A stretch of 56,185 nucleotides of DNA from a virus. The stretch spans positions 1 to 56,185 of IMG/VR virus record IMGVR_UViG_3300036857_000088. One strand, written 5' to 3'. Both the position numbers and the translations under genes were made by a program. Under the pieces are notes generated by a model. The model was given only the letters and a program-made list of their open reading frames with translations. It ran no database searches and was not told where the DNA came from. Shown here piece by piece: positions 11,655-56,185 of this stretch; position 1 is the first letter of the stretch, and every line of letters begins with the position of its first letter.

Positions 11655-13802
11655 ATGAGTCTGCCCGTCATTATCCAGACCGTAACCCCCACGCCCGCGG
11701 ACGGCCAGCCGTCCCTGTCGTTCACGTTCACGAGCGTCGCGGTCGGCCACCGCATCGTCATTGCCGCGCAACGGTTCGACAATGGCAATGACGTAGCGCT
11801 CGTCTTGGGAGACTGCACGAAAACGGGGGGCACGGCCACTCTCGGCCCAATCTCGTTGGACGTGGGCGCGCACACCCCCACGACGAACCCCTGTCAGGCC
11901 GCCGTCTGGTCCGTGTTGGTGACCGGCGCCGGCTCGCTCACCATGCAAGTCGCTGGCAACCACACCAACGACTTCTTTATGGCCACGGGGTACGAGGTGA
12001 GCAGCCTGGATGGGACGCTCGCCGTTGTCGGCACGCCGAGCAGCAATTTCGCCACGACGGGCACCTCGCCTGCCACCTCTGGCAACACGACGCCGGGCGT
12101 TGATGCCCTGCTCATCGCCGCGGTGGCGACCGATCTGGACGCGACGCTGTCGGTGGCCATGGGCAACGGGTTCACGCAGGACTATGCCGTTACCGACGCG
12201 AGTACACACCAAACGGGTTCGACGGGTCACCTCTTACAGAGTGGCGGCGCGGCTATTGGCGGTTCATGGACACTCAGCGGCACCGGGTTCCGCGGCTGGG
12301 CGGCCGTCGTCGTCGCATACGGCGTCGCGGGCGGCGGCGGTGGCGGCGGATCGTCCGCGCCGCCGCGTAAGCCGACGCAAGTCAAGCGCGTGCGCCGAAG
12401 GGCGGCGCCGCGGAAGGCGCCCACGCTGTTGTTCGCCGTGGCGCCGTCCCTCAACATCGTGTCGGCGACCAGCTCGAGCCCGACCGAGTCGCTCGCGTCC
12501 GGCGTTGCCGGGTCGCGGACGATCGCGACCGAGTCCATCGCGGCCGGCATTGTTAGCGCGAGCGTGAGCGCCACCGAGTCGGTGGTGTCAGGCATCACCG
12601 CATCGACGGCGAGCCCGCACGAATTGCTCGCGTCGGCCGTCGCCACGACGACGCTGGCAACCGAGTCGCTCGCCGGACCAGTCGGCACGATCGCGCCGGC
12701 CACCGAATCGCTCGCGCTCGCGTCGTTCGCGCTCGTGACGCCGCACGAGTGGACTATGTCCATTGCCGGCACCGTCGCGTCGCCGACCGAGTCAACGCTC
12801 GGCGTCGCCGGCACCGAAGTCGCGCCGTGGGAAGCCGGCGGCACCACGGTCGCGCCGTTCAAGCCGGTGCACCAAGTCAAGCGCAAGCCACGCAAGGCGC
12901 CGCGCAAGCCGACCCTCGTGTTGTTCACGCTCGTGCCCGCGAACGCGACGGTGTCGGCGACCAGCTCGAGCGCGTACGAGTGGACCGCGCCGATCGTCAC
13001 CGTCGCACGCCCGAGCCCCACCGAGTCGCTCGGTCCGTCCGCGCTCGCCACCGTCACGTCGGCCACCGAGTCGCTCGCACGAGCGGCCGGCACGGCCACG
13101 TCGCCCGACGAGTCGGTGCTCGGCGTCAACGCGCTCGAGCTGTCGCCGCACGAGTCGACCGCGCCGTCGAACGCGGTGTCGGGCTCCGAGGTCACGCCGT
13201 TCGAGTCGGTCGGGCCGATCGCGAACGCCGTTGCGGCGCCGACCGAGTCGGTGTCATCGGCAAGCGCCACCACGATCGCGCCGGACGAGTCGATCGCGTC
13301 GCCCATCGGCACGAGCGACACCGCGACCGAGTCGCTGTCGTTGCCGGCGGGTGCCACCGTCACGCCGTTCGAGTCGACCGCGTCGTCGACTGGCGGGGTG
13401 GCCGGGTCTGTCGTCACGCCGTTCGAGGTGCTCACGCCCACGGCTGGCGCGCTCGCGATCCCGAGCGAGTCGGCCAGTCAGCTCGCCGGCGCGAACGTCA
13501 CGGCGTTCGATTCGCTCGCGAGCATCGCAGGGGCGACGACCGGCGCGCACGAGTCGATTGGCCGCACGATGGCCGCCGCCGCGAGCGCCACCGAGTCGCT
13601 TGGCGGTGTCCGGTCGCCCGCGTTCGTGTCGGCCATGGAATGGCTCGGCCGCATGACGGCGACGATCGTCGGCGCGTTCGAGCTACCGCCGCCGCCGTCC
13701 ACGCAAATCATGCGCGCGCTCGCCGTGCGCGTACTCACCCGCGGCGTCTACGTCCGCACCCTCACGCGACCCGTGCGCTTGCACAACATCACCGAGGTGT
13801 AA
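11655..13802 (+). CDS. Large repetitive virion or surface protein
   Basis: 715 aa. Residues 1-225 form a beta-rich domain ending in a Gly run (GGGGGGG). Residues from about 230 to 680 consist of two modules, each opened by a very basic segment (QVKRVRRRAAPRKAP and QVKRKPRKAPRKP) and then many degenerate repeats of about 15-16 residues built on T-E-S-(L/I/V)-x. The basic C-terminus (VLTRGVYVRTLTRPVRL) closes it. Length variation by repeat gain or loss is expected. Role inferred from position: appendage or fibre. Confidence 0.6.
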   Translation: MSLPVIIQTVTPTPADGQPSLSFTFTSVAVGHRIVIAAQRFDNGNDVALVLGDCTKTGGTATLGPISLDVGAHTPTTNPCQAAVWSVLVTGAGSLTMQVAGNHTNDFFMATGYEVSSLDGTLAVVGTPSSNFATTGTSPATSGNTTPGVDALLIAAVATDLDATLSVAMGNGFTQDYAVTDASTHQTGSTGHLLQSGGAAIGGSWTLSGTGFRGWAAVVVAYGVAGGGGGGGSSAPPRKPTQVKRVRRRAAPRKAPTLLFAVAPSLNIVSATSSSPTESLASGVAGSRTIATESIAAGIVSASVSATESVVSGITASTASPHELLASAVATTTLATESLAGPVGTIAPATESLALASFALVTPHEWTMSIAGTVASPTESTLGVAGTEVAPWEAGGTTVAPFKPVHQVKRKPRKAPRKPTLVLFTLVPANATVSATSSSAYEWTAPIVTVARPSPTESLGPSALATVTSATESLARAAGTATSPDESVLGVNALELSPHESTAPSNAVSGSEVTPFESVGPIANAVAAPTESVSSASATTIAPDESIASPIGTSDTATESLSLPAGATVTPFESTASSTGGVAGSVVTPFEVLTPTAGALAIPSESASQLAGANVTAFDSLASIAGATTGAHESIGRTMAAAASATESLGGVRSPAFVSAMEWLGRMTATIVGAFELPPPPSTQIMRALAVRVLTRGVYVRTLTRPVRLHNITEV

Positions 13803-41715: not shown

Positions 41716-41762
41716 TAGTAGTCGTGTAGTTAAGTGAAGGTGACGATGACGATGAATAGCAT

Positions 41763-41839
41763 AGCGGTCGCATTGCCATCGCAGTGCGGCCGCTTTGCGT
41801 TCGCAGTGCGGTCGTAATGCGGTCGCATTCCGGTCGCAC
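41763..41839 (+). repeat. Tandem array of seven 11-bp units (array II)
   Basis: Units from 41763: AGCGGTCGCAT, TGCCATCGCAG, TGCGGCCGCTT, TGCGTTCGCAG, TGCGGTCGTAA, TGCGGTCGCAT, TCCGGTCGCAC. Same period, palindromic core and upstream context (TAGTAGTAG, then GGTGACGATGACGATGAA) as array I. It ends 5 bp before the -35 of the next family B promoter. Confidence 0.8.
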
Positions 41840-53133: not shown

Positions 53134-53378
53134 CCGCCGCGGCGCAGGACGGTAAGTTCTGCCCGCATTGCGGCGCGAAGCTGCGTCGGCCCAAGCCGGC
53201 GCCCCGTTGCCCGTACACGCTCGACATTTTCGACACCACCGAGGCGCAGGATGCCGTACAAGAACAAGAATCGCCCGAACTGGTACGCGAACCTCCGACT
53301 CGAAAAGGGATGGTGGCGGTGCGCCGCGCTCCCCGCGAAGGCGACGCCCGCCGGGAAGAAGCTCGCCACGAAGATTGA
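53130..53378 (+). CDS. Small zinc-ribbon protein overlapping integrase
   Basis: 82 aa, GTGA overlap with the previous gene. FCPHCGAKLRR at 10-20. Its last 128 nt overlap the integrase start in another frame, so the C-terminus may be unconstrained. Confidence 0.45.
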   Translation: MTAAAQDGKFCPHCGAKLRRPKPAPRCPYTLDIFDTTEAQDAVQEQESPELVREPPTRKGMVAVRRAPREGDARREEARHED

Positions 53379-54435
53379 GCAGATGTGGGAGACGCTCGCG
53401 AGCGAGCACCGCGCGTGGGACGTGCTCGAGGCCGTGACCTCGCGCCGCTGGAAGCTCGGGCGACTCTACGACGAATACACGCGCGTCGGTGGCAACGTCG
53501 CCGACCTTCGGCGCCGGTTGAACGACGTGGACCTCGCGACGCTCCGCGACGGGTTCCTCCTCGTGTACGACAAGCAAGTGCGGAACGAGGACACCCGGAA
53601 GCGCATGCGCCGGCACTTGGCCGATCTGTTCGAGGCGCCGCTGCTCGCGTCGCACGCGACGCACGAGTTGCTGACCGCCCGCCTTTATGAGTACGGCGAC
53701 GTGAGCCCGAACACGCTCCGCACCGTTCATGCGTCGTGGTCCGAGTTCTTCGACTATGCGCTGCACGTCAAGCACGTGGTGCCGACCGACCCGATGGACC
53801 GCGTGCCGCGCCCGCCGCGCGAGAAGCTCCCGCCCCGGTTCTACGAGCTGGACGTGATTCACCAGATTGTCGAGTGGCAACCGACCGAGAAGCGCGCTGC
53901 GCTCATGGCCGTCGTGTACGGCACGGGCCTCGAGATTTCCGTGGCGCTCGCGATCACTCGCGGCGACATCGACCCGTCGAAAAAAAGCATCCGCTCGCCC
54001 GGCACCAAGGCGCACACGCGCGACCGCGTCGTCCGCGTCGACGATTGGGCGTGGCCCATCTTCTGGAAGTACGCCAAGACCATCACGCTCACCACGTCGG
54101 TCATCTTCGGCGACCTGAATCGCTGGACCGCAAGCGATTGGCACCGCAACACCGTCGGCGATGGCGAGCCCGGGTTCGCGAACCAGTGGCGATCGGCCGA
54201 GCCCCACGAAGGGCTCAAGCTCGAGACGCGCTACCCGATGTACAACGCTCGGCACGCGTGGGCCGCGCGCACACTCCGCGCTGGCGTGCCGGTCGAGGGC
54301 GTGCAAAAGCAGCTCGGGCACGTGACCGCGAAGGAGACGTTCGACACGTACGGCCAATTCTGTCCCGATGCTGCTGACAGGGACGCGTGGCAACGCCAAG
54401 TTGCGAAGGCGGAAAAGCGTCGGAGGAAAACGTGA
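53251..54435 (+). CDS. int: Tyrosine recombinase (integrase)
   Basis: 394 aa. Arm-binding N-terminus (MPYKNKNRPNWYANLRL), core-binding SAM-like domain (110-180) and a catalytic domain. Box II: YNARHAWAAR (331-340) with R334, then LGH (355-357) and nucleophile Y367 in TFDTYG. The box I Arg expected in GTG-L-R-I-S is Glu (E228); an Arg further on (R257 or R259) may take its place. The attP site lies about 0.9 kb downstream. Confidence 0.85.
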   Translation: MPYKNKNRPNWYANLRLEKGWWRCAALPAKATPAGKKLATKIEQMWETLASEHRAWDVLEAVTSRRWKLGRLYDEYTRVGGNVADLRRRLNDVDLATLRDGFLLVYDKQVRNEDTRKRMRRHLADLFEAPLLASHATHELLTARLYEYGDVSPNTLRTVHASWSEFFDYALHVKHVVPTDPMDRVPRPPREKLPPRFYELDVIHQIVEWQPTEKRAALMAVVYGTGLEISVALAITRGDIDPSKKSIRSPGTKAHTRDRVVRVDDWAWPIFWKYAKTITLTTSVIFGDLNRWTASDWHRNTVGDGEPGFANQWRSAEPHEGLKLETRYPMYNARHAWAARTLRAGVPVEGVQKQLGHVTAKETFDTYGQFCPDAADRDAWQRQVAKAEKRRRKT

Positions 54436-54674
54436 GCAGCCAGCCGCCCGAGGACTTGATCGTCACCGCGCTCCTCATCAACAGCGAGTACAAGACGATC
54501 GTGAGCATGACGCCGCGCGCGCTCGAGCCGGGGGAGACGCCCGATTGGCGGTACTACATCGGCGCCGCCGCGCGCCGGTTGTGGGGCCGGCTCGACTTCG
54601 AGACGCGCGTCGCGCTCTACGTGAACGCCTGCGAGGTGGCGCTCAAACTGTCGACGGTCAAGGACAAGCCGTGA
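54432..54674 (+). CDS. Small hypothetical protein
   Basis: 80 aa, GTGA overlap with integrase. Helical (LIVTALLINSEYKTIVSM; FETRVALYVNACEVALKL). Unknown; might be an excision or integration helper by position only. Confidence 0.5.
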   Translation: MSSQPPEDLIVTALLINSEYKTIVSMTPRALEPGETPDWRYYIGAAARRLWGRLDFETRVALYVNACEVALKLSTVKDKP

Positions 54675-55198: not shown

Positions 55199-55321
55199 AT
55201 AGTATTGCTCAAGTCCAACGCGCCTACGAGCTGTGCGGCTGTCACGCGGGACTGACGCGCGCATATCTCGACTTCGCCGTGTGCATTGGCCGGGACGACC
55301 CGTGCGAACCCAATGCGCTCC

Positions 55322-55342
55322 GTGCTGACGCCCGTGCTGACG
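55322..55342 (+). promoter_or_regulatory. Integrase arm-type site pair, left
   Basis: GTGCTGACG at 55322-55330 and 55334-55342, period 12 bp. Same arrangement as two pairs right of the core. Confidence 0.65.
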
Positions 55343-55360: not shown

Positions 55361-55413
55361 CTAACCGGCAAACGAAAGCGGCCAACCCCAAGGGAGTCAA
55401 CCGCTTACGTGAT

Positions 55414-55454
55414 AGCAGGGGAGGGACTCGAACCCTCGACCCCGGCATTATGAG
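55414..55454 (-). other. attP core: 3' half of a tRNA(CAT) gene
   Basis: On the minus strand: anticodon loop CTCATAA (55454-55448), stem TGCCG, 5-nt variable loop, T-arm GAGGG-TTCGAGT-CCCTC (55437-55421), then acceptor half CCCTGCT and discriminator base. The 5' side of the anticodon stem is not complementary and no D-arm exists, so it is not a whole tRNA. This is the usual identity core of phages that integrate at a tRNA anticodon loop and rebuild the gene's 3' end. The 566-bp gap from 55188 to 55753 holds this core, arm sites, two extra dyads and a promoter. Confidence 0.85.
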
Positions 55455-55525
55455 AGCGGGTCCGAGCCAGTTAACCCTGTCGATTGACACTTCCCTCCCC
55501 ACCGGCTGACCCCGCGAGCCCCGCC

Positions 55526-55546
55526 GTGCTGACGGATGTGCTGACG
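55526..55546 (+). promoter_or_regulatory. Integrase arm-type site pair, right 1
   Basis: GTGCTGACG at 55526-55534 and 55538-55546, period 12 bp. Confidence 0.65.
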
Positions 55547-55564: not shown

Positions 55565-55599
55565 CAAGTTGCGTCGCCGTTCGACCTCCCGTTTCGGGC

Positions 55600-55620
55600 G
55601 TGCTGACGCTGGTGCTGACA
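55600..55620 (+). promoter_or_regulatory. Integrase arm-type site pair, right 2
   Basis: GTGCTGACG at 55600-55608 and GTGCTGACA at 55612-55620, period 12 bp. Confidence 0.65.
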
Positions 55621-55753: not shown

Positions 55754-56113
55754 ATGACCGCCCACTTCTATGTAACTGCCGCCGACACTGTCGGCAAAAC
55801 GGCCCGCCTCGCCGGCCCGTTCGGCGACGAGCCGACCGCGCGCCGCTGGGTCCGGCCGACCCGCAAAGCCGCCCAACGGCTGACCACCCGCGCCTTCCGT
55901 TATCGGTTCGGCGTGACCGAGTTCCCGTCGCGCGTCGTGCGCCCGGGCATGCTCAACGCCCGGCTGGACATCCCGACCGACCAGCTCGTCGCTCCCGAGC
56001 CCAAGACGAAAGTCGTCTGCGAACGCTGCCATCTCCCGAAGGCCGAGTTCGAGGACGGCGTCGAGGGCCACTACGATTGCGCGCACCCGGCGTGGGTGAC
56101 GGTGGACGTATGA
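55754..56113 (+). CDS. Hypothetical protein with C-terminal Cys site
   Basis: 119 aa. Basic N-terminal half (WVRPTRKAAQRLTTRAFRYRFG) and a C-terminal CERC ... HYDCAHP that could bind zinc. First gene of the replication operon; ATGA overlap with the next. Unknown. Confidence 0.6.
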   Translation: MTAHFYVTAADTVGKTARLAGPFGDEPTARRWVRPTRKAAQRLTTRAFRYRFGVTEFPSRVVRPGMLNARLDIPTDQLVAPEPKTKVVCERCHLPKAEFEDGVEGHYDCAHPAWVTVDV

Positions 56114-56185
56114 ACCAACCGACCCAAGCCACCGAGGCGCTCGTCGCCGCCGTCACCGAAGCGGACTCCGCGCACGGCCAGCCGA
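56110..56185 (+). CDS. 5' part of the gene that continues at base 1
   Basis: ATG 56110 overlaps the previous TGA and encodes 25 residues (MNQPTQATEALVAAVTEADS...) plus one base, open to the edge. Joined to base 1 the frame continues into the protein at 1-503. Confidence 0.7.
   Translation, partial: MNQPTQATEALVAAVTEADSAHGQP

Follow-up and report, generated by a model that had tools for sequence, protein, structure and literature searches.

A probable attP core at the tRNA-Met anticodon loop in a phage record linked to Gemmatimonadota

Results

Positions 55,414 to 55,454 of the virus record IMGVR_UViG_3300036857_000088 very probably (probability about 0.94) belong to the attP core of a temperate Gemmatimonadota phage, whose tyrosine integrase acts at the anticodon loop of tRNA-Met. 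The whole 56,185-nucleotide stretch analysed is referred to as the window. This reading is built on the following observations: an identity block, its boundary, a match to attB, a neighbouring integrase, and a junction and an arm-repeat geometry that both recur.

Core sequence and extent

Read on the minus strand from 55454 to 55414, the segment comprises, in order, an anticodon loop (CTCATAA), a 3' anticodon stem (TGCCG), a variable loop (GGGTC), a T arm (GAGGG TTCGAGT CCCTC) and an acceptor 3' strand (CCCTGCT), and is followed by A. The original prediction, that these 41 bp represent the 3' half of a tRNA(CAT) with every element fitting, is borne out by this reading and by six exact matches in tRNA genes. 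The 5' half is indeed missing. A hidden, degenerate 5' half upstream of the core was considered and rejected, the bases 5' of the core being no more tRNA-like than random window sequence (0.14-0.48 of random pieces score as well). No whole tRNA gene was called in the window by ARAGORN or Rfam, as expected for half a gene. The core is present once in the window (next best match 24/42), and the 101-nt region as a whole has an unremarkable RNA fold (z -1.27).

The original prediction named as bacterial attB a tRNA-Met or CAT-type Ile gene ending CCCTGCT, which could be sought through its exact 41-bp 3' part. A scan of 84,980 species genomes returned the exact 41-mer in only six stretches. All were Gemmatimonadota MAGs, and each match lay inside an intact, ARAGORN-called tRNA-Met gene ending CCCTGCT(A). 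Confined in this way, the match is not attributable to chance. The bacterial gene reads GGCAGGGTAGCTCAG(G/C)TGGTTAGAGCACGGCA, then CTCATAATGCCGGGGTCGAGGGTTCGAGTCCCTCCCCTGCTA. Identity to these genes covers 43 bp (55412-55454: the 41 bp plus the discriminator A and one T), or 44 bp against one genome, so that the 41 bp are confirmed within a slightly longer block. The attP core is accordingly placed at 55412..55454 on the minus strand, from C32 to one base past discriminator A73. Identity extends leftward beyond C32 by 0 bases in all six genes and ends on the right 1-2 bases past the discriminator base. Of 395 Gemmatimonadota genomes sampled, 72 contained the 42-mer with two or fewer mismatches.

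In three of the six genomes with the exact 41-mer there is another CAT gene, whose anticodon stem differs (AGCAGCGGACTCATAATCCG). Judged against E. coli tRNAs, this other gene resembles tRNA-Ile(CAT) and the target resembles elongator Met. Since a separate Ile-CAT-like gene exists in these genomes, the predicted integration target is the elongator tRNA-Met, which settles the choice between Met and Ile-CAT that had been left open. On the evidence of the MAGs, the host phylum would be Gemmatimonadota, for which only six characterised species are reported (PMC11271474). No close relatives of the window region were found in the phage collection searched.

The integrase and its relatives

A tyrosine integrase of 394 aa is encoded at 53251..54435 on the plus strand, convergent with the core (PF00589, E=2.7e-7; PHROG_1 integrase, E=4e-25; AlphaFold model mean pLDDT 87.6). 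It is the sole PF00589 match in the record. The model matches XerA, lambda Int, HP1 Int and Cre, with YopR, MrpR and SroF also among the structure matches. A small ORF (54387-54674) overlaps the integrase stop codon and has no Pfam match; it is possibly a recombination directionality factor.

Relatives of the integrase were found in 25 of the 395 Gemmatimonadota genomes. The closest adjoin intact tRNA-Met genes, and integration elsewhere was not seen among them; some of the more distant members have Leu, Gly, Asn or Gln genes nearby. The nearest of the relatives that neighbour tRNA-Met is only 44% identical. A single-sequence search returned no relatives in virus contigs, and none were found in plasmids. 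Phage records gave three weak matches (23-25% identity). A related integrase and the same kind of core are both present in a second virus contig, L104.

Integrated elements with a rebuilt tRNA and a displaced fragment, the classic pattern left by tDNA islands (PMC4383910), are seen for these relatives. In genome G330, the integrase follows an intact tRNA-Met, and an orphan 3' half that starts at CTCATAA lies 9.2 kb away. The element has sharp ends, and a scan of ten of its ORFs found no recombinase other than the clade integrase. The same arrangement spans 5.4 kb in G380, where the integrase is split across two reading frames, and 2.3 kb in G386, where integrase remnants are present. Five more genomes (G110, G297, G047, G215 and G030) contain orphan halves; the tRNA match runs 3-4 bases further left in G215 and G030. 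Altogether, nine further orphan halves, of which eight are in genomes and one is in a virus contig, start within 0-4 bases of CTCATAA. This segment (55448..55454, minus strand), which is also the left limit of identity in the six attB genes, is therefore the probable 7-bp overlap (crossover) segment. Integration into the anticodon loop, as originally proposed, agrees with homology that starts exactly at C32 and with a junction shared by relatives of the same integrase clade. No lysogen of this exact phage was found.

Two of the relatives have an open frame running across the tRNA-Met 3' half on the opposite strand (L021, 1150-2469; L020, 2384-2710). In L021 this is the integrase frame itself, an arrangement described for the Mx8 and SSV integrases (PMC4383910). 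Four virus contigs (L008-L011) were rejected as att sites, complete tRNA-Met genes being present. These genes have T arm and acceptor sequence in common with the core, and L011 also has a tmRNA gene.

Probable arm-type sites

Direct repeats of 9 bp form three pairs with 12-bp spacing, distributed over both sides of the core. The probable arm-type pairs lie on the plus strand at 55321..55342 on the integrase side (GTGCTGACG CCC GTGCTGACG), at 55525..55546 on the other side (GTGCTGACG GAT GTGCTGACG) and, as a probable further pair, at 55599..55620 (GTGCTGACG CTG GTGCTGACA). The window contains six exact copies of GTGCTGACG, five of them between 55322 and 55608, and one single-mismatch copy at 55612. 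A 9-mer this frequent in the core region was obtained in 0 of 2000 shuffles; an equally frequent 9-mer occurs elsewhere in the window (about 12401-13741). The latter is repeated five times at 12401-13741, a region that overlaps a 42-bp tandem repeat at 12620-12717. About seven 11-bp units (GCATTGCGGTC) form a separate tandem array at 41759-41838.

The geometry recurs in relatives. L104 has AAGCACCA pairs, again spaced at 12 bp, to either side of its core. In G330, 16 kb of sequence contain exactly three copies of the 8-mer CGGTACCA, each at an arm position. G297, which has the closest integrase, carries TGGCACCA and TGGCACTA 12 bp apart on both sides. The spacing thus recurs at orphan sites with different motifs. 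A pair (at least 8/9) was present 5' of the core at 7 of 10 orphan sites and at 3.4% of random positions; the other repeat periods from 9 to 16 gave 0-3 sites. Scan range and period were chosen after the first cases, which makes the enrichment somewhat optimistic, and period 12 still stands out from 9-16. Five loci have their best 3'-side pairs beginning 111-113 bases from the start of the core, and three of these pairs reach only 7/9. The arm-repeat pattern by itself has matches in 42 virus contigs. By analogy with lambda, the paired repeats are probably arm-type sites for the integrase N-terminal domain.

Free-phage attP or prophage junction

The stretch could instead be a prophage junction (a displaced 3' half of attL type) with bacterial DNA on one side, and not the attP of a free phage. 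The far-end junctions of the integrated relatives are orphan halves of exactly this look, and the record is classed as linear. We nevertheless judge this very improbable. The window integrase occupies the flank on which a junction would have host DNA, and probable arm sites are found on both sides of the core. In the genomes with integrated relatives the integrase is 3' of an intact tRNA, whereas in the window it is 3' of a half without its 5' part, and so neither prophage junction fits. L104 has its integrase on the opposite side of its core, which means that integrase placement varies across the wider clade; the case for attP is drawn from the closest relatives and from the arm repeats on both sides. 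In addition, the window ends (56110-56185 and 1-503) can be joined in frame to give a single ORF of 192 aa; its ATG overlaps the stop codon of the preceding ORF, 55754-56113. The joined ORF had no informative family match. The end-joining suggests that the record is a closed circle although it is classed as linear.

Catalytic residues

The fold and the Lys, Arg-II, His and Tyr positions (K253, R334, H357 and Y367) place the integrase in the tyrosine recombinase superfamily. The canonical RKHRH pentad is incomplete, box I lacking Arg-I. This position is E228 in the window protein and Glu or Asp across its clade, and an alignment of PDB profiles pairs the clade Glu with the Arg of XerA and XerD. 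XerC/D-like proteins of Gemmatimonadota have Arg here, and Gordonia phage Schmidt, the source of one of the three weak phage matches, has the canonical Arg. An alignment of 11 sequences gave invariant columns including K253, R257, R259, R334, H357 and Y367. The extra invariant R257 lies in GTKxxxRDR, four positions beyond the conserved Lys.

Catalysis normally depends crucially on Arg-I (PMC4499138), and a moved Arg-I has precedents in IntDOT and IntDes (PMC8138268). In both, as in the window integrase, the canonical Arg-I is absent from its usual place. IntDes, reported only from Desulfovibrio, resembles the window protein further in that its first His is also Tyr (Y331 in the window protein), a comparison made from the text description (PMC8138268). 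The window integrase differs from both in its acidic residue at the Arg-I position and in its candidate substitute, R257, after the Lys. Tentatively, and with the balance leaning against it, the clade may be active with R257 taking over the role of the replaced Arg-I, a solution unlike that of IntDOT. Because of the Glu at the Arg-I position, integrase activity is not certain from sequence alone. In the literature on natural Arg-I variants, no paper about this integrase clade was found.

The same Glu could indicate a fossil: a tRNA 3' half caught by chance or retained from an old integration and no longer used, with an integrase that is inactive or a DNA-binding regulator of the YopR/MrpR type. 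Catalytically retired recombinase folds do exist, YopR, MrpR and SroF among the structure matches. The chance of this is very slim, given that 43 bp of the core are identical to present-day attB genes, that the clade keeps the Lys, Arg-II, His and Tyr positions, and that the G330 element is sharp-ended with the clade integrase as the one recombinase found in the ten ORFs scanned. That the host tRNA is destroyed on integration and a phage-borne one substitutes for it, as known in actinobacteriophages with a common core of about 10 bp (PMC10865867), is close to impossible here, contradicted by a 43-bp identity that rebuilds the gene and by a window in which no tRNA gene was found.

Discussion

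The features expected of an anticodon-loop attP are present in the window, namely a tRNA 3' fragment, identity from the anticodon loop to the 3' end of the gene, and a nearby tyrosine integrase. Because identity runs from C32 to past the discriminator base, integration would rebuild the tRNA gene. In the proposed mechanism, the tyrosine integrase would recombine the 7-bp CTCATAA of attP with the identical segment of the host elongator tRNA-Met. The host 5' half would be joined to the phage-borne 3' half, giving a full tRNA-Met that has the integrase immediately downstream, and the 3' half native to the host would be displaced to the far prophage end. The integrase N-terminal domain would bind the arm-type repeat pairs on both sides of the core, as in lambda. 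A canonical attachment site has a 7-bp overlap with flanking core sites, to which the anticodon stem-loop corresponds, and the strand-exchange positions are placed by analogy with SSV1 and lambda (PMC8371274). Arm binding by the integrase and lysogeny by this phage itself are likewise inferred.

Lambda-type recombination by a tyrosine integrase at an anticodon loop is a known kind of mechanism; what is new is this member. An anticodon-loop ('A') class of tRNA attachment sites for tyrosine integrases was reportedly set out by Williams in 2002. In this class, as in the window, attP carries a 3' tRNA fragment that begins in the anticodon loop and the gene is rebuilt. The displaced fragment marks the far end and the integrase adjoins the rebuilt gene, likewise seen here in the relatives. 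The window differs from the class in host phylum and integrase clade, and in nothing of principle. The Islander database holds 2083 islands with anticodon-centred sites (PMC4383910). As for lambda Int, the core has short direct repeats to either side, present here as a sequence pattern, and residues 1-375 of the model can be superposed on full-length lambda Int (1z1b, Z 18.6, rmsd 10.3 over 316). Unlike lambda-type sites, the putative arm sites are 9-bp units paired with a 3-bp gap, and their motif varies among relatives.

The active site of the integrase is the part most worth attention at the bench, and the clade provides a testable case of tyrosine recombinases coping without the canonical Arg-I. 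A classic integration strategy is here documented for a poorly known host phylum, and an environmental phage record is tied to Gemmatimonadota. The defined attP/attB pair together with the integrase is a possible integration vector for Gemmatimonadota hosts.
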